Source: a virus. From it: DNA of 63,892 nt. A program made the position numbers and the translations under genes. Position 1 is the first letter of the stretch, and each line of letters begins with the position of its first letter. The notes beneath the pieces are model-generated. The model searched no databases. It saw only the letters and a list, made by a program, of their open reading frames with translations, and was not told the origin of the DNA. This document shows, piece by piece, positions 2,557 through 61,991 of the stretch. Location of the stretch: positions 1 to 63,892 of IMG/VR virus record IMGVR_UViG_3300046167_000699; one strand, given 5' to 3'.

Positions 2557-3177
2557 ATGTCACAATATGAACGAAATATGAAATACCTTAATGACAAGCG
2601 TATTATATATAGACGCAATCCTATTAGCGACAAGCCCTCAGCTAAATTTGAGTGGGGTAATTTCTACGAGCAAGGTACACATGAGTGTTATGCATTGTTC
2701 CAAACGAAAGCCAAGATAAACACATACAAATCGCTGAAGTGGCACTTGTATGTTTTATGGTATCTTAATGATAACCTCGATCAAGATGATTTTAATGACC
2801 TCGCTGCATTTATATGTGATAAGGAAAACGGGTTTGTAACATTTAATATATCAACATCACTCCGGGAAAGCATAGTATACGATGTATCCATGCAAGATTT
2901 AGAGAGACCACCCGCTAATAAAGTAAGAAAGATTATATTCAACGACAACTCTGGGTTAACCATGAGTGAGAAGCTTAGTATAGTCGGAACTATGGTAGGT
3001 AAACAAAAGCTTACCGCTGCAGAAATATATGACGCTATGTTGTTTATGCACGATGCAGGTATGAAGATAACCATTAAAGCGATTGCTGAGCAACTCGGTT
3101 GTTCTACACGAACAGTGCATCGTAATATGGGTAATGAACTAAAGAAAGAAAAGCAACTGCTTAACCAAGAACTATAA
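2557..3177 (+). CDS. Helix-turn-helix protein, probable regulator
   Basis: A 206-residue protein whose C-terminal part (about residues 172-192) forms a clear helix-turn-helix: KAIAEQLGCSTRTVHRNMG, ending in a basic tail. The first 130 residues show no recognised domain. Similar modular proteins in phages act as DNA-binding regulators or replication initiators. It directly precedes the sigma factor gene with a TAATG stop/start overlap, so the pair is likely co-expressed and may together switch phage transcription. A weak -10-like TATAATAATATAG sits just upstream at about 2535-2547, but it does not match the 13-copy early module. Confidence 0.65.
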   Translation: MSQYERNMKYLNDKRIIYRRNPISDKPSAKFEWGNFYEQGTHECYALFQTKAKINTYKSLKWHLYVLWYLNDNLDQDDFNDLAAFICDKENGFVTFNISTSLRESIVYDVSMQDLERPPANKVRKIIFNDNSGLTMSEKLSIVGTMVGKQKLTAAEIYDAMLFMHDAGMKITIKAIAEQLGCSTRTVHRNMGNELKKEKQLLNQEL

Positions 3178-3932
3178 TGAAAAAATATAACATACAAAAT
3201 TACGTAAGGTACAAAAACGATTTAGAGACGGTGCTCTTGCGTAATGAAAATTTAGAGTGGGGCGATATGTCACGCGATCAACTTGTAGCGCAGTTTATGC
3301 CATTGGTTGAGAACTTAGCACGTAAGTTTTCTACATCAGACCAAGCATCCGGCGTTATGAGCATCAATGATTTAATACAGGAAGGCAATTACGGTTTAGT
3401 TGCAGCGGTTGACAAAATCAGCTGGGACAAAATACTTGATTCTGAAGACCCTGAAAAAACAATCAAGTCATTCCTATCAAAAAGAATAAAGGGAGCGATA
3501 CGCCGCGCTATTGATATTAATAGAGGCGACGTACGTATCCCCGAGCATAAGCTTAATGAGATACGCAAGAACCCGGAAGACGAAGCTATGGTTGCTTTGT
3601 TTTTCAATAGTGTGTTCTCAAGTATCGATGCATTTAATGCTGACGACGAAAATCCTATATTCCAAATAGCAGACAACACCGAGCCGTACAATATCGGTTT
3701 AATGAATTCGTATTTGTTAGGTTTGATGCGTGAGCATTTAACACCAGTGCAGTATGATGTATTACGCTTATCTTACGGTCTTGATGAAGCTAAGATACCA
3801 GCAATGCAGATTGCAAATCGCGTAGGCATCAGTGTATCTACTGCTAATGTGCGTATATCGCAGATAAAGAAGGATGCTATTGACACATTAATAGCGAACA
3901 CCGATTCTTCCCAAGTGCTTGATTTTATGTAA
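3177..3932 (+). CDS. Sigma-70 family RNA polymerase sigma factor
   Basis: A 251-residue sigma factor. Region 2 is visible at about residues 35-85, with FMPLVENLARKF followed by DLIQEGNYGLVAAVDK, the core-binding and -10-recognition helices. Region 4 is at about residues 185-235, where LTPVQYDVLRLSYGLDE leads into an HTH reading MQIANRVGISVSTANVR. It lacks the long region 1 of housekeeping factors and resembles phage and stress sigma factors. Such a protein would redirect host RNA polymerase, and it is the obvious candidate to read either the unusual early modules or the late minus-strand genes. Which one cannot be told from sequence. Confidence 0.88.
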   Translation: MKKYNIQNYVRYKNDLETVLLRNENLEWGDMSRDQLVAQFMPLVENLARKFSTSDQASGVMSINDLIQEGNYGLVAAVDKISWDKILDSEDPEKTIKSFLSKRIKGAIRRAIDINRGDVRIPEHKLNEIRKNPEDEAMVALFFNSVFSSIDAFNADDENPIFQIADNTEPYNIGLMNSYLLGLMREHLTPVQYDVLRLSYGLDEAKIPAMQIANRVGISVSTANVRISQIKKDAIDTLIANTDSSQVLDFM

Positions 3933-7693: not shown

Positions 7694-8492
7694 GTCACTA
7701 ATCATGGACTTGCTACTTGCGCCACATAAAGACGACCGCACAGGTACAGGTACGCGCTCAGTGTTTGGTAGAATGCTTGTGCACGATATGAGTGAAGGTT
7801 TTCCTTTGCTAACTAACAAGCGTGTGTACCACAAAATGGCCATTCACGAACTACTATGGATTGCAAATGGACGCACTGACATGCAATATCTTCGCGATAA
7901 TGGCGTTACATACTGGAATGCTGATTACGATCGCTCAGGACGCTCTGATGAGACCCTAGGGCCTGTATACGGCAAACAATGGCGAGACTTTAACGGCGTA
8001 GACCAGTTGTTTAATGTTTTAGACGATGTGAGAAACAACCCAACATCACGTCGTATGATTGTTAACGCTTGGAACCCCGCGGATATGCCTGATATGGTAT
8101 TACCACCGTGCCATTATGGCTTTCAGCTGTATGTAAACGACGGGCAACTTGATTTAATGTGGCAACAACGTTCCGCTGATGTATTCTTAGGCTTGCCTTA
8201 TGACATTGCAATGTACGGTTTGCTACTTGAAATGATTGCCAAAGGCAACAACTTAAAACCCGGCAAACTAATTGCACAACTTGGCGACTGCCATTTGTAC
8301 AACGATCACTTAGAGCAAGCTAGAATATACTTAGCTAGAGTACAGCCAGCGCATATGCCTGAGCTTGAACTAGCCAAGGGCATGTATAGCACAATGCACA
8401 ACGAGGTGATCATTCCGGAGTTCAGCGATATAACCATTAAAAACTACAACCCAAAGCCCGCGATACCAGCACCGCTATCGGTTGGCAAATAA
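7668..8492 (+). CDS. thyA: Thymidylate synthase ThyA
   Basis: A 274-residue ThyA, which methylates dUMP to dTMP using methylene-tetrahydrofolate. The catalytic cysteine is Cys148 in PPCHYGFQ. The phosphate- and substrate-binding QQRSADVFLGLPYDIA block and the GDCHLYNDH motif are intact, and the length is close to the bacterial enzyme. An ATG 48 bases upstream keeps the frame open, but the start at 7668 gives the standard N-terminus. It sits with MazG-like proteins and ribonucleotide reductase in a dNTP-supply block. Confidence 0.95.
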   Translation: MTNIEKQYESLIMDLLLAPHKDDRTGTGTRSVFGRMLVHDMSEGFPLLTNKRVYHKMAIHELLWIANGRTDMQYLRDNGVTYWNADYDRSGRSDETLGPVYGKQWRDFNGVDQLFNVLDDVRNNPTSRRMIVNAWNPADMPDMVLPPCHYGFQLYVNDGQLDLMWQQRSADVFLGLPYDIAMYGLLLEMIAKGNNLKPGKLIAQLGDCHLYNDHLEQARIYLARVQPAHMPELELAKGMYSTMHNEVIIPEFSDITIKNYNPKPAIPAPLSVGK

Positions 8493-11251: not shown

Positions 11252-12972
11252 AGACTTGGAATAACGAATGGATCAAAGGAACAGACTACCCTGCATGGGG
11301 TGATACTGAAGTATACAGAAAAACAATCTCTGGTGGGTACTTGCTGCAAGGCGAGACCCCAAGAGATGCTTACGAACGTGTAGCTAAAACAGTTGCGCGA
11401 AGATTATATAAGCCAGAACTTGCAGATGTATTTTTTGATTACATATGGAAAGGTTGGCTTAACCTGGCTTCTCCTGTACTTTCAAATACCGGTACCGACA
11501 GAGGCTTACCGATTAGTTGCTTTGGAATTGATGTCGCGGATAGTATCCAAGATATCGGCTCTAAGAACCTAGAAATGATGTTGCTAGCAAAACACGGTGG
11601 CGGTGTGGGTGTTGGCATTAATATGATAAGACCCGCTGGAGCTAAAATTACAGGAAATGGAACATCAGACGGAGTCGTACCTTTTTGCAAAATCTATGAC
11701 TCAACAATCCTTGCAACTAATCAAGGATCTGTTAGAAGAGGAGCAGCATCAGTTAACATCAACATTGAACACCCTGATTTCGAAGAGTGGTTGGAAATCA
11801 GAGAACCGAAGGGCGATGTTAACCGACAATCGCTTAATCTCCATCAGTGCGCAATTGTTGGTGATAAGTTTATGCGACGACTTGAACAAGGCGATAAAGA
11901 AGCGAGAACTCGATGGAGTAAACTTCTTAGAAAGCGAAAAGCAACTGGAGAACCGTACATTATGTTTAAAGGGAACGTTAATAAGAACAATCCGGAAGCA
12001 TATAAGTCAAATGGTTTAAAAGTACATATGACAAACATATGTAGTGAGATTACACTGCATACAGACGAGTCACACAGCTTTGTATGTTGTTTGAGTTCGC
12101 TTAACCTGTCTAAGTACGACGAATGGAAAGGCACTGATCTTATTTACCATGCTACATGGTTTTTAGATGGTGTTATGGAAGAATTTATACAACGAGCAAA
12201 AGGCTTGCGTGGTTTTGAAAATGCAATACGCTCAGCAGTTAAGGGCAGACCATTGGGTCTTGGCGTCTTAGGCTGGCATACTTATTTGCAAGACAGAGGC
12301 ATACCTTTTGAAGGATTATCAGCACAATATGAAACAAGAAAAATATTCTCTCAAATCAAAATTGAAAGCGAACGCGCTTCAAGGGACCTGGCCGATGTCT
12401 ATGGTGAACCTCTTTGGTGTGTCGGCACTGGGATGCGTAACACTCATCTTAGGGCTATTGCTCCTACCGTTAGTAATAGTAAACTGGCTGGGAACGTTTC
12501 TCCAGGTATTGAGCCGTGGGCCGCAAACGTATTTACAGAACAAAGTGCTAAGGGTACTTTCATACGTAGAAACCCTGTTCTTGAAAGTGTTTTAGAAGAT
12601 AATGAGATAAACACTGAAAAGATCTGGAATCAAATCCTAGCCGACGGTGGCTCAGTGCAGAACATCGAAGAACTCGATGGATTGTTAATGGGTGATTGGG
12701 ACGAGCCAGTTAAGAACGTGTTTAAAACGTTTAAAGAAATTAACCAACTGGAATTAGTAAGGCAAGCCGGAATACGGCAGCAGTACATTGACCAATCGGT
12801 TAGTTTAAATCTAGCCTTCCCTTCTGAAGCTACTCCAAAGTGGATTAACAAAGTTCATATGGAAGCTTGGAAGCAAGGTGTCAAAACCTTGTATTATACG
12901 AGGACGGAATCAGTGCTGCGTGGCGATTTAGCCGCTGCTGCAATGGATGATTGCGTTGCCTGTGATGGTTAA
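11245..12972 (+). CDS. nrdA: Ribonucleotide reductase alpha subunit
   Basis: A 575-residue catalytic subunit, shorter than the roughly 760 residues of cellular NrdA because it lacks an N-terminal ATP-cone; it is therefore probably not subject to overall dATP inhibition. Recognisable elements are SNTGTDRGLPISCFG with redox Cys92, the glycine-rich GGGVGVGINMIR, the CSEITL substrate-binding region, a CCLSSLNL segment, and the C-terminal CVAC pair (Cys570 and Cys573) that is re-reduced by thioredoxin-like partners. It is the last gene of the plus-strand operon and ends directly before the convergent terminator. Confidence 0.93.
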   Translation: MVETWNNEWIKGTDYPAWGDTEVYRKTISGGYLLQGETPRDAYERVAKTVARRLYKPELADVFFDYIWKGWLNLASPVLSNTGTDRGLPISCFGIDVADSIQDIGSKNLEMMLLAKHGGGVGVGINMIRPAGAKITGNGTSDGVVPFCKIYDSTILATNQGSVRRGAASVNINIEHPDFEEWLEIREPKGDVNRQSLNLHQCAIVGDKFMRRLEQGDKEARTRWSKLLRKRKATGEPYIMFKGNVNKNNPEAYKSNGLKVHMTNICSEITLHTDESHSFVCCLSSLNLSKYDEWKGTDLIYHATWFLDGVMEEFIQRAKGLRGFENAIRSAVKGRPLGLGVLGWHTYLQDRGIPFEGLSAQYETRKIFSQIKIESERASRDLADVYGEPLWCVGTGMRNTHLRAIAPTVSNSKLAGNVSPGIEPWAANVFTEQSAKGTFIRRNPVLESVLEDNEINTEKIWNQILADGGSVQNIEELDGLLMGDWDEPVKNVFKTFKEINQLELVRQAGIRQQYIDQSVSLNLAFPSEATPKWINKVHMEAWKQGVKTLYYTRTESVLRGDLAAAAMDDCVACDG

Positions 12973-19292: not shown

Positions 19293-19757
19293 CTATTTAA
19301 AGTGCTTGTATTTTGTTTTGCCGTCTTTTTTGTAGGCTATTAATCTTTCTCCACGGTTTGTGCGGTTATCGACATAAGAAACATGCACCCAGTCTGGCTC
19401 TTCTTCTGTGCCAAACTCCCATATTAACTGATCAAAATCAGTATGCTCTGATATATAATGGAATAATTCTTTATTGGTTAATCCGCCGTATGCTTGGGCG
19501 TCTAAGTCAAGAGCTTGACCTTTGGAATGTTGAGAGGTTTTACTTCCACCAATGCGCTCATTAAGAGCTTCACTGCGATATCCGGAAGTTACGCAAATAG
19601 GTTTGTTAAAATAATTACGCGTTGGCTGGAAAATGTTTAGTGCAATTGCCTTTAAATTTTCCAAGTGCTCTATTGTAGGCTCATTATTGATGCCGCATCT
19701 TTTTGCCGTAGTTGATTTGATTACCTCAGCAACACTTAAGTTTTTTGATAATTTCAT
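19293..19757 (-). CDS. Peptidase M15 endolysin
   Basis: A 154-residue zinc carboxypeptidase/endopeptidase of the M15 (Peptidase_M15_3) family, cleaving peptidoglycan stem peptides. Zinc ligands are His77 and Asp84 in SQHSKGQALDLD, and His125 in DWVHVSY; SGYRSEALN marks the start of the active-site region. No signal peptide is seen, so it needs a holin for release. It overlaps the giant internal virion gene by four bases. Confidence 0.92.
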   Translation of the reverse strand: MKLSKNLSVAEVIKSTTAKRCGINNEPTIEHLENLKAIALNIFQPTRNYFNKPICVTSGYRSEALNERIGGSKTSQHSKGQALDLDAQAYGGLTNKELFHYISEHTDFDQLIWEFGTEEEPDWVHVSYVDNRTNRGERLIAYKKDGKTKYKHFK

Positions 19758-22700
19758 CGTGTTTTTCCCCCTCTTGTTTTAACAGTTCTTCCCCTGCTCT
19801 TGGTTTTTTTGTTTGCAGCTCTAGTTTCTTTCGCTTTTTCTATTCCAGCTTCTTTGCGCTCTTTCTTTGCGGCTTCTTTAATAGCTTCCGCGTTTTCCTC
19901 TATAGCACCTACGTCCCATGTTTTCCAACCTAAGCCTAATGCTATACGCTGCCACGCTTTGTTGCGTGCATCGAATGCTTCGCTCACGGAAGTAAGTTCA
20001 TCAACCACACGATCGAGCGGCAAGTTGATAGAAGCTGATAAAACCTTGCCTAGTATTGTCCAATTAGGACCTAAGTCTAATCTTCCGTCTGCTACCACTC
20101 CCCAGCCACGTGCTGCAATTTCATCTTTCTCAAACTTCCTTGTTTGAATTGCGCTGTATACTTTGCGAGCCTTAGAACCGATAGGCGGCGATATATCAAA
20201 TAAAGATAAAACAGTATAGGCATGATCGGACATAAAACCTTTTTTCTCTTGCTTATCGTATTCTCTAATAATGTTTTTAACAGTAGAGAAAACCGCCCCA
20301 TATACACCTGAGCCTTTAAGTACAGTATCGAGCATGCTGTTTAATACTCTAGTTATCTTTTGCTCTTCCTTAGCATTCTTCTTGTCTAGCTCAGCAGCAG
20401 TAAGATCCTCTTCATCATCATCAAACCCAGGCAACATAGCGAACAACGCGCTTTGTAATGCTGAGAATATAAAGTTTTGTATTACACCGTAATAAGCAAT
20501 CTTACTTACGTTTTCTTTCCAATCTCCTCTGTTATTAGCTAAATCTAACGCCGCCTTTTTCATTAAGCGGGTATATTGCATAGGGGTGTTCTGAAAAGCG
20601 AATATAAGACGCCCTAGTGTGCTTCTTTGCAGCTGTGACACCAATGCCGGATCTGAGGACTGCTGGGCTTCATCGGATTTTTTAGAAAAATCAATAAACG
20701 CTTGCGCTTCTGCATCCTTTTGTGACACGCCTTGCTTAATCAGAGCGTTAACGCGGTTGCGGTAATACATAGCGCCACCTGTTGCAATAGCCATACTATC
20801 CGCAATTTGAGTGGGTGTAAAACCTAATTGTAACAACTTAGCTAAAATAGCTTGCGGGCTATTTTTACTTGCGTTAGCTACACTAGCAATTTCATCGGAA
20901 CTTACGTCTTGCTTTAAACCACCCCGACGCTCTTTAAGCTTGTCCGAGTTAAATATCATAGTCCAATCAGACCAATATTGCTTTTGGTTAGCAAACGCAG
21001 CTGCTGCTTTAACGGGGTTATTGTCAGACCAGTTTATAAAGTTAGTAAACGAAAGCATTTGTAACAATGCAGAACGTCTGTTAAAGAACATGATTGCGCC
21101 TGTAGAACCGTTAATCCAGTTTAACCATGCATTAACCTGCTTATTGCCTCCCGCGTTACGGTTTGTGCCGTTCTTCATTGAGTACAAAGAGTCTTCAATT
21201 GCGTCGCGATGTGCTTTACCGTACACCGCCTCAATCTTATTTAGGTTCTCCGTGGTGAATATTGCATCAGCGTTTGCTATAAACTCTTCTAAATATTTTT
21301 TACGACCAATTTTTTCGGTCATGCTGTTAAGGTCCGACAGTAGCGTATTACCAGCCCAGTATTCACTAGGTTCCATCCAAGTATCGCGGCGAGCAACAAC
21401 AAGCATTGCGTCCGCAAAGTCCATTAACTCTGGATTTTCACGAATAGCGTCTTGTAGTATTTTCGTATCTTTCTGAGACAAGCCTGGTACTTTAATACCA
21501 GCTTTACCCCATAAGTAAACTCTAACAGCTTGATCATAGGTAAAACCTGTTTTGCCAATCTCTTTGTTTAGTAACTGGTATTGCTTAGGGAAAGCTTTAA
21601 CAGCAGATTTAAAGTCACGCTTAATTTGTTGACGTATGCCATCAATAGCGGCTACACCTTTAGCGTAAGGCGTCATTAAGTTATCCTCGAGCCATTTCAT
21701 ATCAGCTTCACCCTGTTTGCCCTTACCAGCGAACGCATAGTTAACTAAGCCTCTAAAATCATCAACACTAGGCGCAACAAAGAATTTAAACCTGCCTTTC
21801 TTTTCACCACGCTTTTGCGCTTGTACAGCGGAGAAAGTTTTAAATGATTCAACACCTGTTTTACGTTCAAGTATATTGTTAAACTTTTTACTTAGCTCTT
21901 CCGCTTTTGGTGATTTACTAAATTTAGCTCTTTCAACCTGCTTTACTTCTTCAATAGCTTTAGCAGCTTCTTCTGCATTAATTTCTTTATTAAATTTAAC
22001 CCAACCTTCACCTATAACTTCTCCTTTATTTTTGCCGCCAATAACCTCAAGCGCTTCCATGTTTTTAAAGCCATAGGTGCCTTTGTTATAATATCTAAAT
22101 ACTTCACTGTCTGTTTCTAAATCAAAATTAGAATTCATTTGAGACTGCACCAATATGTTAAAGTTGTCATCCATTTTTACAGGGATAATAGCCACGTTGT
22201 ATTTGTCTCTTAGTTTATTTAAATCTATATTTTTAATTTTGAAATGCTGAGTTAACTTAAGAACCATGTACTCAGTAGGTATCATGTGTTCATATCTTAA
22301 ATTAGCAGTTGGCGCGCCTGTATGGTAATATTTAACAGGGGCAGCAGCCTTAAGCATACTAGACATGTTACTCTTAAGACTCATCATTGTCATGACCCAG
22401 TCTAATTTATTGCCGTTTTCATTAACGTAAGATAGATAATCAGTAAGTACTTCCCAAGCTTCCCTAGCTTCTTTTACTCTTTGGTCATATTGCTCTTCAA
22501 ATGTTTTTTTAGAAATAGGCGCTTTTGCTTTAACACCATCTTTGCTGACCGTTTTTGTAGCTGTCTGAGCGGGTGTTAATGTAAGTTTTTTCCAGTCTTT
22601 AACAGTCTCGCCTTTGTAAGATACATTGGTTATCACCACGCCTGCACCCCCGGTTTTGTATTCTATTTTAACACCTGGTATTGTATTTAAATTGTTATTA

Positions 22701-25700
22701 ATAAAATCCGAAACACCAGCGTATATCTGCATTCGACCACCGCCTATTTTTCCGGAAGTGGTTTGGTGCCCACGCATCCATTTTAGTACCGTTATTAAAC
22801 CTTTTACTCCTTGCTCTTCTATTGTTTTGGTATTAAAATCTAAGCTTAGGCCTCTTTGTCTGTTAACTAAGTTTTTATTTTCAAAAAGAGCTTTATATCC
22901 ACCCTTTAATGATGATTTAGCAATATCCAAAGCAAGCATTAGGTTGCTTTTTTGTTTAGACAGCTCAACACCCTCTTGTACAAACGAGGCAAAATTTACA
23001 TCTTGCGCTTCTGGTTTACTAAGATATCTTTTAACGGTATTAAAAGACTCGTTGGCAAATTTCTTTATTTCTTTTTCAGTAATAATGTCGCTAGGCTCGT
23101 TTTCAAAGGTTTTAATTAAAGCATTGCGCAATCTGGCATTAGTAAGATTTCCGGTATTTTGGCTATCAATAATAATTTTTAAACTACCCATGCGATCGTT
23201 AAACTCTCCGTATTGAGCCGCAGAAAGGCTGTATTTTACATTGCCCCTTTCAATGTCTACTATCGCTTGAGTGGTATAATTATCCACAAGTTCAACCCCC
23301 AGCAAGTCTTGACGCATTTCAAACGCCTGGCGAATTTCACTATTAGGGTCTTGCAAAGCCTCATTAACAATATCAAAAGAAATTTCCTCCGCCATTGCTT
23401 TAGCTAAAGATTCTTTGCGGCCTCGTATAGGCGCTCCAGACGCGTCTAAAATGTTAGATAAGTAATCAGCATCAGATAATCTAGTTGATGCATTAGGTAG
23501 TCTTCTAACAAGCTCTGCACCTGATGTGCGGCCCGCTTTGTCTGTGTCTACAGACTCTCTATCAATTTTCTTACCCTTCCAATCACTTGTCCATACACCG
23601 TTAACTTTTTTCTGGATAGCATTAGGCATAGCCGTCATCAAGTACGTGGTAGTCATGTTCTGCAAAATAGCAGCTTTGTTACGCAAAAGGAATTTACGAA
23701 GTTCACCGTCTTTCTTGCCGCCCATCGCTTTCTTTAAGTCGATGTCAGCTTGTTTGCCCATAGCTTTACGAAGCTCGGCAATATATGGCTTAACAGTAAC
23801 GTTTTTAGATACGGACTCATCCATACGCGTTTTCATAACACGCACGGTTGATTTAACTTTTTCTTTAATTGAATTTACAACTTCGCTGTCTAAAACCCTG
23901 CGTTCTAGCAGAGTTTTGTATTGTGGCTTGTCTTCCTTAGCTGTGGTCTCTTCCTGCGCCGCCATACCTTTAGCAGTGTCAATGTCTTTCTTAATACCAC
24001 CTGTTTTTGCCGATTCAATACCTAATCTAGAGGCTAAGTTGTTAGATCTTAGAAACGCTCTGTTGACCAAGAACTTTTCAATATCCTGCTTGCCTTCTTT
24101 AAATTCCTCAAAAGCTAAAGTTTCAATCTCTGTTCTTAAAGAGTTTTGGAAATCTTCGCGAGATACGTTATTGCGTTGCTCTGGTGCAATCGGATCGTAC
24201 AATGCTTTAGTACGATTAGTAACAATTTTGCCAATAAGGGGGCTTAGTTGTTCTCTAATTTTTGCTTCAAGACGTTGTTGTACGGCGTCAGCCTGAACCT
24301 CAACGCCGAACTTTTCAGCTACTTTTTTAGCCTCCTCAATTCTTCCGGCACGCCTAGACAGCATGTCTATTACGCCAGCGTCTTGCTCAGGCGTAAGCGT
24401 TCTTGATTCTTTTGCAGTTGGCGCTTCTTCATCAGAGCGATCACCAACGGTTTTGTCCTTAATGTTTAAAGCAGGACCTTTGCCGCCGAAGTGTGCTTGT
24501 TTGTTAAAGCCTCTAATAAACTGGTAAGTAGCTTCATCGCTTTTAAGTTGCATTGAAGCGGGCAGCCAACTATTAACAAAAGAACGTGCTTGTAACAAAA
24601 AGTTTTTATCGACCGCTTGGCCGTCTGCAATAACATCAGACATAGCGTTCATCGCCTCTTCGTAATAATCTGCGTCTTTCGTTACTTCCCCGTCTTCACT
24701 TGTCTCAGTGTAGCTTTGGTCTATTCTAAATTTAACCTTAGTGTACAGGTCAGGTTGGTTTTTTTCTAAATAACCAAGAAGCTCCTCACCCGCTTTAGTA
24801 ACATCAGTAGTGTTAAATTTTTGACGGGCTATTGAGTGAAGAAGCTCGTGAGCATAAACACCTATCCTTTTGTTTTTAACGGACATAGGTTTATTAATAA
24901 GTATAATATCTGGCTCCCCGTTTTTACCAGGTATATTTATAGCCTCTACTTCTAGTTTAGGGCCTTCTTCAGATTCTTCAGATTCTTCTGCTACTTCAGC
25001 AGCTTTTTCTTTACTGTACCCTAAATCTAATAGCCTTTGCTCAAAAGCCGCTGAGGCATTATCTCCGTCAAATGTTTCAATGCGTACGTTTATATTGTTA
25101 GCCTTAGCGTAATCTTCAACGTTTTTTGCGCCGCTTTCTATTTTTTCAGCGTACTTTAAATTTTCAAAGTTATCTATCGCGCGCTTCTCAATGGCCTCCG
25201 CTGTTATAGCTTTACCTGGGCCGGCTTCTTTTTCTAATTCAATTTTTGCGGCATTAAACATTTCTGTTTTTTTACCACCACGCATTTTATTCCATTCTTG
25301 CGCTATGCCAACCATGCTTTCATTAAGCATGCGGTCTTGATACATCTCATAACCGGTCTGTGCGTCAAATACAACCTTGTTGCCGCTTGATGCCTTTAAA
25401 TTTTTTGTGCTTAACTGCTCGTTGGTTAATATATCTTCTCGTTGCTCGGCTAATTTATCAAACTTGGCTCTGTATTCTGTTTCTATAGCTTTTAATTGAG
25501 CCGCACCTAAATCAGTGTTCGATGCAAGCTTTACGAAGTCAGCGTTAACTTTGCGCATCTGACGGTTTATATCGCCTACTGCTTTAGCATCCTCTAATGT
25601 TAAATCCACTCCTAAACGAGCGATAACATTGTTTTTTATATCGTTAGCTTCTCCTGTAAGTTCTTCAACGAGGGCTTGCACTTCTTGAGTTTGCTGTGGC

Positions 25701-27790
25701 AAAGGAACACCGTCACCGGCATTTGTAAGGCCTTTAACACCGGTTAAAGACTCTAGTTTAGCTATTATTTCCTTTAGCCTAGCGCTTTCTTTACTTGTGG
25801 CTAGCTCGCTGAAATAGGCTTCTTTAATAGCCCCAAAATTACCGCCTACAGACATGCCGCCACCCATTAAGGCACCTTGTGCAAAAGTTTCTAAACCTTC
25901 TTCAAAAAGCTTTTCGTCAGTAATAGCTTCAAAAAAGTTTTTGTCTTCATCTAATATATAAATATCAGCAAAGTTTTGGAAGGTATTTGTAGCCCACTCG
26001 GATCCACCTTCAACTCTAATGCCTTTAACAACGTCTTTACCTAGCTTAATAGCCGCCTGCTTAATTGTTTTAGGTGGTAAAAGTTTCGCTCCTTGTTTCA
26101 AGCTTTTAAGTAAATACAAAGTACCTGTTCTTTCAAACGCAACTTCTGCTAAACCGTTCCAAACCTGTGCCGTAATCTTACGCCATTCTGGTATGTTTAA
26201 CGTTTTAGAGTCTTTTTGCATTTGCTCTTCAATAGCAGAGCGCTCAAGAGCATCTATATTTGGATTACCATCTAGGAGCTCACGGTTACTAAGCATGCGC
26301 TTTGCCGCGTCTCTTTCAGCAATTGCTGTTTCCACACCAGTGCTACCCGCACCTGTTGCAAAAAACAAAGGCAGTGCTGCTGGTCCCGTAAACGCCATAG
26401 CCAAAGAAGGAATAAGACTGGTGCTAGACGATGCTAGCCACATACCCGCTTCTTGCAGGCTACCTATTTCATCAACCTTTACAGACCTTTGAAACTTTTG
26501 TTGTTCTTCTTTTATGCCAGCTGCCATTTGAAATGCAGCCTCTTTGTATTTCGGGTCGTCTCCTAATAACTGGCCTAACTGAGCGGTAAGGTAATTAGCG
26601 TCTGCAGCCAAGCCTTTAAAATTACTAGTCAACTGCTGTAGTCTATTGTAATTAGCGCCAAAATCTTTAATAGCCAAAGGTAATCCTTTGCTATCTTTCG
26701 CTAGCTCCCTGCCTTCTAATAATGTTTGTTGTAAATTTTCAAAATCAGCAAGCGCAACCAACCTGGTTTCTTCGGTTGGGTTTGATTCAAAAGCATTGTA
26801 AGATTCTTCGTAGGCTGCGGATTGGCTTTCGTATTTTTTATTTAAAGCACCAACGCGTTCTTCCGCTATAGCTTTTTCATTAGCCGCTATAGCTTCTAGG
26901 TCCAACCTAGTCTGGCGGTCAAGATTGTTCGCAAACTTTAATGACTGCTTTGAAGTGTAACCCTCATTGCGGGCATTTTCCCATGCTGTTAACCGCTCTT
27001 TATTAGGCGGCGCTATGTAGCTACCTGCTAAGTATTTTTTATATTGCTCTTCTTCTTCAACGCTTTCAAAGTCGCCGTTCTCAAAAGAAACATCAAAACC
27101 TTTGTTATCTCGGAAGCGTCTAATATTGCTGAACTTTTCCTCACGTTCTTTTTCGTAAAGATTTAAGGCTTCTTTTTCAGAAAGTGGCTCAGGGGTTGTG
27201 GCCGCTTTGTATTCATCATACTTAGCACCTGATCTTTCCTGAGCTTCTGTAAGGTAGTTATCGTTTTTTAACTCCTCTATTTTAAGGTTTATTTCCGCGG
27301 CTTTTTCACTAAGCTCTTCTTCCGAAAGCTCTGGCCCAAACTCGACACCGGTACGAACTGTTTGTATAGCGCCGTAAGGCGAGTAGTTTCTTTTTTCGTC
27401 ACGTTTTCTTATGTTAACAGCGTCCCAAGAATGCATGCCGGTGCCTTCTGTAACGTAAAGTCCCAAGCCAGAAAGCTTCTCGTTAAGCATTTTAGAAACC
27501 TTTTCTTCGCTTCCTTTTAAATCTTCGGCTGTTACGTATTCGTTAATTTTAGGGGCGCTAGCTACGGGTGACTCCAATAAAGTAATGCCCAATCTGGATT
27601 CCCCAGCGGGCGTTGCTAATCCTGGTCCCGTCGGCGGAGTCGTGTCCTCCGGAACCGTTGTCTTTCCCACATCACCAGCAACATACTGCCAGTTGTATTT
27701 TTTTGCAAGCACGTCAAGTTCACTGCCGAATTTAGCGGCAAAATCGCGGGCTTGCTCATCAGATAATTCTTTATCTCCTATAATGTACAT
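19754..27790 (-). CDS. Giant internal virion protein with HExxH motif
   Basis: A 2,678-residue protein, by far the largest here. Size and place after two smaller internal-type proteins match podovirus ejection proteins (compare T7 gp16, about 1,300 residues). Around residue 980 there is a zincin-like HELLH (YAHELLHSIA), suggesting an embedded metalloprotease. Long charged coiled-coil stretches occupy the first 900 residues. Hydrophobic stretches near residues 420-450 and in the last 350 (such as IQNFIFSALQSALFAMLPGF) could enter a membrane during DNA ejection. The C-terminus is highly basic. No lytic transglycosylase motif was clear by eye. Confidence 0.8.
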   Translation of the reverse strand: MYIIGDKELSDEQARDFAAKFGSELDVLAKKYNWQYVAGDVGKTTVPEDTTPPTGPGLATPAGESRLGITLLESPVASAPKINEYVTAEDLKGSEEKVSKMLNEKLSGLGLYVTEGTGMHSWDAVNIRKRDEKRNYSPYGAIQTVRTGVEFGPELSEEELSEKAAEINLKIEELKNDNYLTEAQERSGAKYDEYKAATTPEPLSEKEALNLYEKEREEKFSNIRRFRDNKGFDVSFENGDFESVEEEEQYKKYLAGSYIAPPNKERLTAWENARNEGYTSKQSLKFANNLDRQTRLDLEAIAANEKAIAEERVGALNKKYESQSAAYEESYNAFESNPTEETRLVALADFENLQQTLLEGRELAKDSKGLPLAIKDFGANYNRLQQLTSNFKGLAADANYLTAQLGQLLGDDPKYKEAAFQMAAGIKEEQQKFQRSVKVDEIGSLQEAGMWLASSSTSLIPSLAMAFTGPAALPLFFATGAGSTGVETAIAERDAAKRMLSNRELLDGNPNIDALERSAIEEQMQKDSKTLNIPEWRKITAQVWNGLAEVAFERTGTLYLLKSLKQGAKLLPPKTIKQAAIKLGKDVVKGIRVEGGSEWATNTFQNFADIYILDEDKNFFEAITDEKLFEEGLETFAQGALMGGGMSVGGNFGAIKEAYFSELATSKESARLKEIIAKLESLTGVKGLTNAGDGVPLPQQTQEVQALVEELTGEANDIKNNVIARLGVDLTLEDAKAVGDINRQMRKVNADFVKLASNTDLGAAQLKAIETEYRAKFDKLAEQREDILTNEQLSTKNLKASSGNKVVFDAQTGYEMYQDRMLNESMVGIAQEWNKMRGGKKTEMFNAAKIELEKEAGPGKAITAEAIEKRAIDNFENLKYAEKIESGAKNVEDYAKANNINVRIETFDGDNASAAFEQRLLDLGYSKEKAAEVAEESEESEEGPKLEVEAINIPGKNGEPDIILINKPMSVKNKRIGVYAHELLHSIARQKFNTTDVTKAGEELLGYLEKNQPDLYTKVKFRIDQSYTETSEDGEVTKDADYYEEAMNAMSDVIADGQAVDKNFLLQARSFVNSWLPASMQLKSDEATYQFIRGFNKQAHFGGKGPALNIKDKTVGDRSDEEAPTAKESRTLTPEQDAGVIDMLSRRAGRIEEAKKVAEKFGVEVQADAVQQRLEAKIREQLSPLIGKIVTNRTKALYDPIAPEQRNNVSREDFQNSLRTEIETLAFEEFKEGKQDIEKFLVNRAFLRSNNLASRLGIESAKTGGIKKDIDTAKGMAAQEETTAKEDKPQYKTLLERRVLDSEVVNSIKEKVKSTVRVMKTRMDESVSKNVTVKPYIAELRKAMGKQADIDLKKAMGGKKDGELRKFLLRNKAAILQNMTTTYLMTAMPNAIQKKVNGVWTSDWKGKKIDRESVDTDKAGRTSGAELVRRLPNASTRLSDADYLSNILDASGAPIRGRKESLAKAMAEEISFDIVNEALQDPNSEIRQAFEMRQDLLGVELVDNYTTQAIVDIERGNVKYSLSAAQYGEFNDRMGSLKIIIDSQNTGNLTNARLRNALIKTFENEPSDIITEKEIKKFANESFNTVKRYLSKPEAQDVNFASFVQEGVELSKQKSNLMLALDIAKSSLKGGYKALFENKNLVNRQRGLSLDFNTKTIEEQGVKGLITVLKWMRGHQTTSGKIGGGRMQIYAGVSDFINNNLNTIPGVKIEYKTGGAGVVITNVSYKGETVKDWKKLTLTPAQTATKTVSKDGVKAKAPISKKTFEEQYDQRVKEAREAWEVLTDYLSYVNENGNKLDWVMTMMSLKSNMSSMLKAAAPVKYYHTGAPTANLRYEHMIPTEYMVLKLTQHFKIKNIDLNKLRDKYNVAIIPVKMDDNFNILVQSQMNSNFDLETDSEVFRYYNKGTYGFKNMEALEVIGGKNKGEVIGEGWVKFNKEINAEEAAKAIEEVKQVERAKFSKSPKAEELSKKFNNILERKTGVESFKTFSAVQAQKRGEKKGRFKFFVAPSVDDFRGLVNYAFAGKGKQGEADMKWLEDNLMTPYAKGVAAIDGIRQQIKRDFKSAVKAFPKQYQLLNKEIGKTGFTYDQAVRVYLWGKAGIKVPGLSQKDTKILQDAIRENPELMDFADAMLVVARRDTWMEPSEYWAGNTLLSDLNSMTEKIGRKKYLEEFIANADAIFTTENLNKIEAVYGKAHRDAIEDSLYSMKNGTNRNAGGNKQVNAWLNWINGSTGAIMFFNRRSALLQMLSFTNFINWSDNNPVKAAAAFANQKQYWSDWTMIFNSDKLKERRGGLKQDVSSDEIASVANASKNSPQAILAKLLQLGFTPTQIADSMAIATGGAMYYRNRVNALIKQGVSQKDAEAQAFIDFSKKSDEAQQSSDPALVSQLQRSTLGRLIFAFQNTPMQYTRLMKKAALDLANNRGDWKENVSKIAYYGVIQNFIFSALQSALFAMLPGFDDDEEDLTAAELDKKNAKEEQKITRVLNSMLDTVLKGSGVYGAVFSTVKNIIREYDKQEKKGFMSDHAYTVLSLFDISPPIGSKARKVYSAIQTRKFEKDEIAARGWGVVADGRLDLGPNWTILGKVLSASINLPLDRVVDELTSVSEAFDARNKAWQRIALGLGWKTWDVGAIEENAEAIKEAAKKERKEAGIEKAKETRAANKKTKSRGRTVKTRGGKTR

Positions 27791-56508: not shown

Positions 56509-56527
56509 GTTATATATTATTAGTTGC

Positions 56528-56546
56528 GGTCATACCTTGTATGATC
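56528..56546. promoter_or_regulatory. Hairpin or operator-like palindrome upstream of first late gene
   Basis: Eight paired bases with one wobble, GGTCATAC with GTATGATC, around the loop CTT. It lies about 20 bases upstream of the first late gene's start. It could be an operator or RNA leader hairpin for late transcription. Confidence 0.5.
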
Positions 56547-56571
56547 ACGCGGTTAAGGCGGTAGTTAATAC

Positions 56572-56615
56572 GCGACAGTAGCCTACTACTATATATTATA
56601 ATAGCCTATCGTCAC
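56572..56615. repeat. Inverted-repeat element, copy 1
   Basis: Arms GCGACAGTAG and CTATCGTCAC flank an A/T-rich centre (CCTACTACTATATATTATAAT). A T-rich tract follows within 30-45 bases. A second copy lies at 59595-59639. On the minus strand the centre offers TATAAT. The two copies bracket a 3-kb block of tiny promoter-ORF cassettes. Confidence 0.65.
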
Positions 56616-57087
56616 GTTTTATAACCGACCTATTCCGAAGGAATTTTTTTTTATTTTTTACAGCCTCCTCACTCAAATTATATTCATATGAATGTAAAAT
56701 CAAACAATTCACACCAATCATATCTCTTTAAATATAAAAAGAAGCGTCGAGCAAAAAATATTTGTGAGATAAATAGAGGTATTGTGTTACACACTTATAT
56801 ACGAACGAATCCCCCGATGTGGAAAGCTGTTTCTTTTGACCAGCCCCCATGCCTGTATCTGTTTTACGTTCCAGGTTACCAGGTTCCTGCTCTGGTCATG
56901 ACTGTGTGCTAACTGTCTGCTGTGCTGTTCCTGTCAGATGTTTGGGGTTTTGCCTGGTGCTGTTGCCTGTTCCTGGTGCTGTTATCTGTTGCTGTCTGCT
57001 GTGTATCCTGTCACGGTCCTCAGATGTTCTGGCATCTGGCCCTGTATCCTGTCACCTGTGCGCTGTCCTGGGCAGGGGTGTATAGCA

Positions 57088-57122
57088 TTACAGACTTAAC
57101 ACGATGGGTGTTCGATAATATT
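57088..57122 (+). promoter_or_regulatory. Early promoter module 2
   Basis: TTACAGACTTAACACGA, 8 bases, then CGATAATATT, 23 bases upstream of the ORF at 57145. The leader GTAACC and A-rich sequence follow. Confidence 0.72.
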
Positions 57123-57144
57123 AGTGTAACCAAAAAGGGATATT

Positions 57145-57294
57145 ATGAGCTACATCGACTACCATAACGCGCACGCAGACCTTTACGCGCAACGCCTGTT
57201 CGGCAAAAATTACGCGGACCTAGACATGTTCACGCAGGACGCTCTTGACGACCACCTTGCAGCTGAGTGTATGGACGAAGGTTTGCAAAAGTAA
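57145..57294 (+). CDS. 49-aa early hypothetical protein
   Basis: The first tiny ORF of the plus-strand arm, with its own module and an A-rich GTAACCAAAAAGGG leader. It encodes 49 mostly acidic residues with HADLYAQRLFGKNYADLDMF in the middle. Its stop TAA lies inside promoter module 3. Function unknown; early phage ORFs of this size often antagonise host proteins. Confidence 0.62.
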   Translation: MSYIDYHNAHADLYAQRLFGKNYADLDMFTQDALDDHLAAECMDEGLQK

Positions 57295-57317
57295 TACGAC
57301 GGGATTACGATAATATT
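57283..57317 (+). promoter_or_regulatory. Early promoter module 3
   Basis: TTGCAAAAGTAATACGA, 8 bases, then CGATAATATT. It overlaps the last codons and stop of the 49-aa ORF and precedes the next ORF by 22 bases. Confidence 0.74.
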
Positions 57318-57339
57318 AATGTAACCAAAAGAGATTAAC

Positions 57340-57519
57340 ATGACAAGATTTGAATACTACCTCGACCGCTCGGAAGACGCATACAGAACAGCTAAGAACA
57401 TCTGCCAAAGCAGACGTGAAAAAGCAGGCATACCAGGACTGTGTGACGCGGACGTTGAAATGGAGTACAGCCTGCTACTGCAAGAGTGGTATGACGACTA
57501 CCGCGAGGAGCGCTGTTAA
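57340..57519 (+). CDS. 59-aa early hypothetical protein
   Basis: A small charged protein with two cysteines in the middle (ICQSRR and GLCDAD) and a tyrosine/acid-rich end (EWYDDYREERC). It follows promoter module 3 and the leader GTAACCAAAAGAGATTAAC, identical over 19 bases to that before the next ORF. An out-of-frame ORF over the same DNA is not supported because it lacks this leader. Function unknown. Confidence 0.6.
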   Translation: MTRFEYYLDRSEDAYRTAKNICQSRREKAGIPGLCDADVEMEYSLLLQEWYDDYREERC

Positions 57520-57520
57520 C

Positions 57521-57555
57521 CTACAGGACTACTACGAACCCTCACTGATAATATA
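57521..57555 (+). promoter_or_regulatory. Early promoter module 4
   Basis: CTACAGGACTACTACGA, 8 bases, then TGATAATATA. It begins one base after the stop of the 59-aa ORF and lies 22 bases upstream of the next start. Confidence 0.7.
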
Positions 57556-57577
57556 AATGTAACCAAAAGAGATTAAC

Positions 57578-57724
57578 ATGACTGATTCAAACTACTCACT
57601 ACTACAAGACCTTTACCTTTGTGTGTCTGCGACCAGACCAAAGAACATGGACAACCTACTGATCTTCTTGGATCAGATGATGGACCTTGAAGAGGATGCG
57701 ATGTATGAATTAGATACTGAGTAA
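57578..57724 (+). CDS. 48-aa acidic early hypothetical protein
   Basis: A short acidic protein (FLDQMMDLEEDAMYELDTE) preceded by the same leader as the 59-aa ORF (GTAACCAAAAGAGATTAAC). It is followed by the 395-base noncoding block, so it may be the last gene of the first early cluster. No family recognised. Confidence 0.58.
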   Translation: MTDSNYSLLQDLYLCVSATRPKNMDNLLIFLDQMMDLEEDAMYELDTE

Positions 57725-58061
57725 CAACCACAATCGGGCTCGTAATCAGGCGGACGCCGCGCCACAACATAACAGGAGCAGTCGCTTAACATTGGAGTAA
57801 GCCAACGAAACAGACTGCAAGCAGGACAGCCTAGTAGCTTAATCCGCGCAGAGGCCAGCAACATAAGAACCTGGTGCCACAGCTGGGCCTGCATCCTGTA
57901 AAGAACACAGATTCAGTCTGACGAGGCTGATCTGTTAGGGGAGTACTAAGACGACAGGATAAGTTACCACCAGCACAGCTGTACGTGGCGCCTGTCGCAG
58001 CCCCGATGTATAGCAACGCGTATAGCATTTAAATACCTAGGGTAATACACTCATCACCTAT
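57725..58061. other. Second gene-free, GC-richer block
   Basis: No supportable ORF is seen. The plus strand is A-rich and T-poor, the mirror of the block at 56840-57075, and both end in GTATAGCATT (57079 and 58019 regions). A hairpin CAGAT(T)CAG with CTGATCTG lies at 57909-57935. GACAGGATA (near 57954) is complementary to TATCCTGTC found twice in the left block. A structured RNA or replication origin is possible. Confidence 0.5.
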
Positions 58062-58096
58062 TTACAAACATAATACGATGTGCATCCGATAATATA
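58062..58096 (+). promoter_or_regulatory. Early promoter module 5
   Basis: TTACAAACATAATACGA, 8 bases, then CGATAATATA, with GTGTAACC downstream, 24 bases before the ORF at 58121. Confidence 0.76.
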
Positions 58097-58120
58097 AGTG
58101 TAACCAAAAGAGATACTATT

Positions 58121-58279
58121 ATGATTAAAGACAAGATGCTATACAACCAATGCAAAATAGAAGTGTACGACACAATCGTGCACGAAGGCCTGTCAAACGT
58201 ACGCTTTAACGAGCTCGACAATTTAACAAAGTTGCTATACAACTATAAGTTAGCTCTCTACAAAACGAATACGAAGTGA
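58121..58279 (+). CDS. 52-aa early protein, KLLYN type
   Basis: A 52-residue protein that contains LTKLLYNYKLALYK near its end. The next small ORF has SKLLYNKKLKDL at a similar place, and both share a GTTGCTATACAAC hairpin in the DNA, so the pair may be paralogues. Its stop is in the spacer of promoter module 6. Function unknown. Confidence 0.58.
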   Translation: MIKDKMLYNQCKIEVYDTIVHEGLSNVRFNELDNLTKLLYNYKLALYKTNTK

Positions 58280-58316: not shown

Positions 58317-58457
58317 ATGACTGACAAACAAATAAACACAACACCAATTTGGCCATCAAGACTAATCTTCAACTCAAAGTTGCTATACAACAAGAAGTTG
58401 AAAGACCTAACTGAAACTGAGTTGTTCGAAGTAAGAAAGTATTCCTTACAAAAATAA
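58317..58457 (+). CDS. 46-aa early protein, KLLYN type
   Basis: A 46-residue protein with IWPSRLIFNSKLLYNKKLKD, then TETELFEVRK. It resembles the preceding ORF around KLLYN. The stop TAA is within promoter module 7. Function unknown. Confidence 0.58.
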   Translation: MTDKQINTTPIWPSRLIFNSKLLYNKKLKDLTETELFEVRKYSLQK

Positions 58458-58823: not shown

Positions 58824-58912
58824 TGGTTGCTATACTACTCCTAACTGCAACAAGCATCGTGGTAGGCGGTGCAGTTGCTACTCACAAAGATACTACGAAC
58901 AACAAACGATAA
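58823..58912 (+). CDS. 29-aa putative membrane peptide
   Basis: A tiny ORF coupled by TAATG overlap to the preceding gene. Residues 2-20 (VAILLLTATSIVVGGAVAT) are a good single transmembrane segment, with a short charged end. The stop TAA lies within the CGATAATATA element of promoter module 8. It might act in the host inner membrane; translation is inferred only from overlap and composition. Confidence 0.48.
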   Translation: MVAILLLTATSIVVGGAVATHKDTTNNKR

Positions 58913-59287: not shown

Positions 59288-59476
59288 ATGAGACATTACT
59301 TAGATTTAACAACCGACGAACTTCGAATGCTATACGCTGTAATACCAGTGCAACAACCGTTCGAAAACCTAAAGCCTACCCTTGAGAAACTAGAACGCTT
59401 CCTTGAAATAGCTAAAATGAGCGAACCAAGTGAACTAGTCTATCGAATCCACCGTCCTAGCGAAGAGAAGAAGTAA
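59288..59476 (+). CDS. Early hypothetical protein
   Basis: A 62-residue charged helical protein, starting with HYLDLTTDELRMLYAVIP. No family recognised. Its stop codon lies in the loop of a terminator-like hairpin. Confidence 0.58.
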   Translation: MRHYLDLTTDELRMLYAVIPVQQPFENLKPTLEKLERFLEIAKMSEPSELVYRIHRPSEEKK

Positions 59477-59488
59477 ACTTCTCTTTTT
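59464..59488 (+). terminator. Intrinsic terminator-like hairpin overlapping a stop codon
   Basis: AGAGAAG pairs with CTTCTCT across a 7-base loop containing TAA, followed by TTTTT. A strong candidate for ending transcripts of the second early cluster. Confidence 0.7.
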
Positions 59489-59538
59489 GCTATACACTAC
59501 CGGCCTGATGCTGAAATAACATCGGAAGAGTAGACTCC

Positions 59539-59558
59539 AACCTACACGAAGGTTTTTT
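59539..59558 (+). terminator. Short terminator-like hairpin
   Basis: A 5-bp stem AACCT with AGGTT around ACACGA, followed by TTTTTT. A backup to the terminator 60 bases upstream. Confidence 0.5.
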
Positions 59559-59594
59559 AGTGCTATACACGGGTGCAATGGCCTCACCAAAAGT

Positions 59595-59639
59595 GCGACG
59601 ATAGCCTACTACTATATTTACTTAATTAGCTATTGTCAC
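59595..59639. repeat. Inverted-repeat element, copy 2
   Basis: Arms GCGACGATAG and CTATTGTCAC (nine of ten pairs, one wobble) flank an A/T-rich centre including CCTACTACTATATTTA. It is followed by T-rich sequence and then promoter module 10. It corresponds closely to the copy at 56572-56615. Confidence 0.66.
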
Positions 59640-61754: not shown

Positions 61755-61991
61755 ATGACAAATATACTATCTATTGAGGTGAGCTTGGAAGCTCTGGAAA
61801 ACAAGTGTCGTACACACGACTGGTACTACAACTACTCAGACGACCATCGCAAATGGTCACGTGGCTTCGACCAATACCGCGAAATAAATGCTATACTCGA
61901 GAAACTTAGTCATAGTCGTGAGGCGCTCGAGATATACAATAAATACGCGCCAGAGCGGTTCAAGCGCCCTCTAGATAGTAAGTATTATTAA
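61755..61991 (+). CDS. Early hypothetical protein
   Basis: A 78-residue protein, helical with aromatic residues (CRTHDWYYNYSDDHRKWSRG). It lies between two coupled genes and promoter module 12. No family recognised. Confidence 0.58.
   Translation: MTNILSIEVSLEALENKCRTHDWYYNYSDDHRKWSRGFDQYREINAILEKLSHSREALEIYNKYAPERFKRPLDSKYY

Follow-up and report, generated by a model that had tools for sequence, protein, structure and literature searches.

Gene Layout and Regional Features

The window, that is, the whole stretch of DNA that was analyzed, spans 63,892 bases and represents one complete virus record of IMG/VR. By its terminase, portal, and GroEL proteins, the virus falls near podoviruses of Flavobacterium and Cellulophaga, and its hosts are probably Bacteroidota, those of relatives with its sigma factor likely being Flavobacteriia. 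The late genes occupy 56,508 down to approximately 13,000 and are read leftward; those for early functions and replication are read rightward, starting at 57,145, reaching the end of the record, and resuming at position 1 up to approximately 13,000. Two noncoding blocks of unusual composition are located at the boundary between these gene sets. A preliminary description had proposed a special divergent region here, and the gene layout bears this out, since the rightward early and the leftward late genes meet there. We regard the region as the control region from which the early and late genes of this uncultured phage diverge. The first early genes are three short ORFs on the + strand, encoding 49 aa (57145–57294; DNA 86% identical in the relative L176), 59 aa (57340–57519; conserved in L086), and 48 aa (57578–57724).

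Several further elements precede the blocks. A dyad element of 43–47 bp (GYGACNNTAG..CTANNGTCRC), located by pattern search at 56572–56615, also occurs in the distant relative L113. The window contains three copies of it (2519–2563, 56572–56615, and 59595–59639), and the 212 pattern matches on both strands in the loci searched correspond to about 106 distinct elements. The element could serve as an operator or as an origin element. Its copy at 2519 extends over the first bases of a gene (2557–3177) whose product has a C-terminal HTH and which precedes the sigma factor gene. A terminator-like hairpin on the + strand, ATTCCGAAGGAAT followed by a T run (56632–56652), was read from the sequence and is kept in L085, L086, L087, and L176. 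Directly upstream of block 1, a conserved core ATTTGTGAGATAAATAGAGGTATTGTGTTACACAC...GACCAGCCCC (56760–56848) is almost invariant in L085, L086, and L087 and recognizable in L113, L161, and many other relatives; in some of them (e.g., G043 and L169), an element like TTACAAATANATAAGTAAGGGGTTA is tandemly repeated two to three times within the core.

A blastn comparison of the region with isolates gave no match, and a tRNA search of the window found none. No gathering-level Rfam match was obtained for the whole window, and at a relaxed threshold the interval 56509–58120 yielded sub-threshold matches only, none of them credible. Among the late genes, a protein of 2,678 aa (19754–27790) matches neither Pfam nor PHROGs. 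The giant late proteins were considered as an RNA polymerase, and this assignment was rejected in the absence of a Pfam or PHROG match.

Composition and Structure of the Two Blocks

Block 1 (56849–57079) is A-poor and CTG-rich on the + strand. The low A content that had been noted earlier is extreme for this virus: the five 240-nt segments of the record with the lowest A on the + strand all start between 56811 and 56851, and the base frequencies over 56840–57087 are 0.10 (A), 0.36 (T), 0.28 (G), and 0.26 (C). The + frames of block 1 are open mainly because few A residues give few stops, and its reading frames are of low complexity; block 1 was therefore rejected as a gene. It was likewise rejected as a structured RNA, because it folds no better than its shuffles on either strand (z-scores of +0.95 and +0.24).

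In fifteen relatives, the segment that separates the conserved core from the first leftward box (described below) is likewise rich in G and T and poor in A on the early strand, its G+T content ranking no lower than the 97.7th percentile of the relative's own record; this comparison covers the relatives with a usable anchor, and thus not G037. The distant relative L113 is without a G/T-rich block of this kind. The words that make up the block vary, CTG being used in the window, L086, L087, and L176, and TGTG and CGATACG in other relatives. It is the base composition of block 1 that is kept among relatives, and not its sequence.

Block 2 (57725–58007, + strand) is noncoding, with stops in all three + frames. 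Its description as GC-rich and T-poor holds for the interval 57725–58020, where the GC content of 0.544 is reached by no other 296-nt segment of the record and the T content of 0.16 is matched by only 0.5% of such segments. The block is a possible structured RNA with the closing helix ATCGGGCT/AGCCCCGAT. Compared with shuffles, the sequence trimmed to the best closing helix has a folding z-score of −2.64 on the + strand and −0.62 on the − strand; before trimming, the score was −1.94. A search for relatives of its 3′ domain (57938–58005), a hairpin adjoining the tandem boxes described below, found one contig only, L176, with 81% identity in the region 12598–12685. There, the helices GACAGG/CCTGTC and CCAC/GTGG can be paired by eye as GCCAGG/CCTGaGC and CCGC/GCGG; a small gene takes the place of the first 210 nt of block 2, and the last 70 nt are kept. 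Block 2 is noncoding and probably partly structured, and it may be an RNA, with one relative supporting its last 70 nt.

The two blocks had also been proposed to be paired noncoding RNAs linked by 9-base complementary words. The odd composition of both blocks fits such a proposal, and the words do exist. Their significance did not stand, as complementary words of at least 9 bases arise in 123 of 300 dinucleotide shuffles; nor are they conserved, since the nearest relative, L176, has GCCAGGGTA in place of GACAGGATA of the window and breaks the match. With block 1 lacking structure as well, base pairing between two such RNAs is extremely improbable.

A Repeated Box Oriented Along Transcription

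Both blocks end in GTATAGCATT (57080–57089 and 58020–58029), as had been observed at the outset. This shared ending belongs to a repeated box: TGCTATAC and its reverse complement GTATAGCA, the box extending to TGCTATAC(AC), occur 15 times in the window against 2.83 expected, and none of 100 shuffles reached 15 copies. Three leftward copies flank the first early genes, one at 57080–57087 (− strand; GTATAGCA on the + strand), which would be the phage-sigma promoter for the late genes, and a tandem pair at 58020–58027 and 58008–58015, the tandem form being the 20-mer GTATAGCAACGCGTATAGCA. The orientation switches between 58,027 and 58,137. Rightward copies lie at 58137–58144, 58233–58240, 58381–58388, 58828–58835 (intergenic), 59328–59335, 59488–59495 (directly upstream of a small RNA), 59561–59568, and 61889–61896, and further ones at 1028 and 4232. 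One copy is an exception, being leftward within the rightward region, inside the thymidylate synthase gene (8384–8391). A leftward copy about 4.9–5.2 kb downstream of the sigma start is seen at many sigma loci, perhaps due to protein conservation. A further copy (19940) lies antisense to one of the late genes.

The switch recurs in most of the twelve contigs examined at length, in which leftward tandem copies occupy the first 1–1.5 kb and give way to single copies that point rightward and are spaced about 1.07 kb apart (median). The tandem 20-mer is found exactly in 41 viral stretches, often in two to three copies, and has no match in the bacterial and archaeal genomes of the collection. Many of the genomes in which tandem arrays were first described had been found via this 20-mer, and the frequency of arrays among them is therefore selection-biased. 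The unbiased sample consists of the sigma-selected loci only, as some other relatives were found through the motif. Eighty loci picked via the sigma protein alone contain 351 copies in sense orientation, where 27.6 are expected, and 94 in antisense orientation, where 30.4 are expected; as these loci are mutually related, the copies cannot be counted as independent.

An alignment of 107 dissimilar sites defines a ten-base box, with the 50 upstream bases unconserved except for a weak A at −1. The motif is therefore a single element. Boxes inside ORFs fall in all three reading frames (120, 38, and 23 copies), so the selection acts on DNA or RNA and not on protein alone. A literature search for the 8-mer box found no relevant paper among those listed.

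In the stretches that carry GTATAGCAACGCGTATAGCA, the typical order is a GC hairpin, the tandem copies, and an early promoter-like repeat. A stem of at least 5 bp follows the tandem leftward boxes of relatives in 13 of 20 cases (4.1 expected), and single rightward boxes show no excess (39/375, with 34 expected). This association of hairpins with tandem boxes suggests that the last 70 nt of block 2 are most likely this phage's form of the box-adjoining hairpin of its relatives; they may work in the 5′ end of a leftward RNA or in the 3′ end of a rightward one. Terminator-plus-early-promoter cassettes have been reported in T4-type phages, and the hairpin, GTATAGCA, and the early promoter could by analogy make up a mobile cassette with a regulatory role, placed between early genes, in which the hairpin and GTATAGCA would be a 3′-end signal of rightward RNA. 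Relatives indeed have an early gene, a GC hairpin, GTATAGCA (often twice), and an early promoter in this order, and the hairpins are specific to tandem arrays. The hairpin, however, lacks a T run in the rightward direction, and the same word occurs in the opposite reading within genes that have no hairpins, which makes such a cassette quite unlikely.

Early Promoter-Like Repeats and a Small RNA

A second repeat, TTACAAANNNAATACGA-N8-GATAATATA, resembles an early promoter. All of its 13 pattern matches are on the + strand and hence rightward; four of them lie among the first early genes, at 57088–57120 (TTACAGACTTAACACGA-N8-CGATAATA), 57283–57315, 57521–57553, and 58062–58094.

Further downstream, a small RNA of about 45 nt (59502–59546, + strand) forms two covarying stems in the arrangement GGCCUG-stem-GAAAUA-stem-CGGAAGAGUAGACUCCGUCCUAC. 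Relatives of this RNA were found in L114, L121, L124, L126, L128, L130, L135, L138, L142, L144, L149, L151, L156, L165, L169, L176, L252, L258, L291, L296, L298, L307, L313, and L314. Covariation is pronounced, with 31 double-change cells against 7.5 in shuffles (0/500 reaching the observed value). Rfam yields no match at gathering level for it in the window, and it is possibly a new RNA family. The early box GATAATA precedes it in 11 of 29 rows, mostly at a distance of 7–9 nt, and TGCTATAC in another 10, at about 5–10 nt; in the remaining 8 rows, neither box is near its start. The matching distances indicate that the early box and TGCTATAC replace each other in register.

This substitution bears on whether the motif could act in RNA, as a processing or antitermination signal in early mRNAs. 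Such a role would account for the sense-strand bias within early genes and for copies beside a tRNA 3′ end and the 5′ end of the small RNA. Yet a promoter box substitutes for TGCTATAC before the small RNA, and the leftward copies would require leftward transcripts from promoters further to the right, of which none were seen. We consider an RNA-level function of TGCTATACAC very unlikely.

A Phage Sigma Factor Co-occurring With the Box

The gene at 3177–3932 (+ strand) encodes, by profile matches, a sigma-70-family factor, the proposed reader of TGCTATACAC. Its product matches phrog_351 (E = 8e-20), Pfam Sigma70_r2 (24.8 bits, cut-off 24), and FliA/SigA profiles (FliA over residues 27–239, E = 1e-9), and its Foldseek matches are sigma chains. 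These matches identify it as a sigma-70-family protein encoded by the phage. Although it apparently contains region 4, the boxes show no −35 element, which counts against their being its promoters. IMG/VR contains 132 relatives of this sigma factor, and a tblastn search of the isolate phage collection gave no match.

The factor was found in 21 of 40 contigs (52–69% identity), and all 21 carry between 4 and 15 copies of TGCTATACAC. Several copies are also present in some contigs with no sigma match; many of these are fragments that had been found via the motif, and the absence of the sigma gene there therefore says little. A reversed-pattern control gave zero throughout. Elemovirus and related isolates, including the sequenced relatives NC_055853 and MW202828, resemble this phage in their terminase (46–66% identity), GroEL/GroES, and a similar divergent early/late layout, but have no sigma match and not a single copy of TGCTATACAC. 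We infer the pairing of sigma factor and motif from this co-occurrence in related genomes.

The same comparison weighs against reading TGCTATAC as iteron- or partition-like sites of a replication or segregation protein. The region would then be an origin, with the A-poor, G/T-rich block favoring R-loops or unwinding. Tandem copies 10–13 bp apart close to the divergent point, the conserved dyad element (56572–56615) and core (56760–56848) in the same region, and the G-richness of block 1 on one strand in relatives are all in keeping with an origin. The copies, however, are spread over about 15 kb, strictly oriented along transcription and often within genes; TGCTATAC replaces the early promoter before the small RNA at equal distance; and the isolates with a related terminase and a similar divergent layout have no copies. 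An origin built on these boxes is thus unlikely; a replication origin of another kind, as suggested at the outset, may or may not lie in this region.

Comparison With Known Phage Promoters

The nearest working parallel is phiEco32, whose sigma factor gp36 reads single-element middle/late promoters (tAATGTAtA) with transcription starts 6–8 bp downstream (PMC8948821). Both phages encode a sigma factor, have one short element without a −35 box, and have early genes opposite to the late cluster (PMC8948821). They differ in the element itself, in the many copies within genes, and in the tandem leftward copies among the first early genes of the phage described here. Membership in the phiEco32-like group was rejected, as the enriched motif is TGCTATACAC and not tAATGTAtA, and the sigma factor has no tblastn match in the phage collection.

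T4 also combines a single short box with a phage sigma factor, its late promoter TATAAATA being located at −10 and read by gp55 (PMC1524935). In T4, the sliding clamp and gp33 serve as co-activators of late transcription, and late promoters precede late genes, whereas here the boxes occur throughout the early region. Salmonella phage 7-11 is a podovirus that likewise has a divergent architecture and a phage sigma factor, and tandem putative promoters were predicted in its long divergent intergenic region (PMC4331800). Its promoter as determined by experiment is bipartite, GTAAtg-(16)-aCTA (PMC8948821), and prediction alone can therefore mislead; among the 107 sites studied here, in contrast, no second promoter element was found. 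By the sequence counts given above, the TGCTATACAC motif has far more copies and genomes behind it than that prediction.

Proposed Transcription Program

As is typical of a promoter class, TGCTATACAC is short and conserved, follows the direction of transcription, and is located upstream of middle/late units. Because of this orientation, its single-element form, its occurrence in all three frames, its register with the small RNA, and its co-occurrence with the sigma factor, we conclude that TGCTATACAC is probably the phage-sigma promoter of the divergent control region, with block 1 as the late leader.

According to this model, host RNA polymerase would start the early genes at the early promoter-like repeat. 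The phage sigma factor, a product of the early/middle region, would then redirect the polymerase to TGCTATACAC, a putative single-element promoter with a start some 6–10 nt downstream. Rightward copies would keep the replication genes on, and leftward copies would launch the late operon (56,508 to approximately 13,000). Block 1 directly adjoins the leftward box at 57087–57080 on its downstream side and would, by this position, form the 5′ leader of the late transcript, the leftward direction of transcription being inferred; this leader would be about 570 nt long and U-poor over its first 240 nt. Block 2 sits between the third early ORF and the tandem leftward boxes, and leftward transcription from these boxes would run antisense over early ORFs 1–3 and could help their shut-off.

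The early strand of block 1 being G/T-rich and A-poor, the leftward RNA would have few U residues. This composition could prevent folding of the leader, provide a binding site for a protein, or have its effect in the DNA (R-loop). A more speculative extension, which we put forward tentatively, is that production of the sigma factor would both start the late operon and silence the earliest genes by antisense transcription, with the G/T-rich block having a function, as a long leader or R-loop element, and not being a spacer. A putative regulatory leader conserved in composition, and not in sequence, poses a puzzle of its own.

The transcription plan can thus be read for a phage group that is seemingly widespread in metagenomes and, as its sigma factor has no match in the isolate collection used, seems to be missing from that collection. 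On such genomes, the sequence alone now suffices to annotate putative early and phage-sigma promoters.
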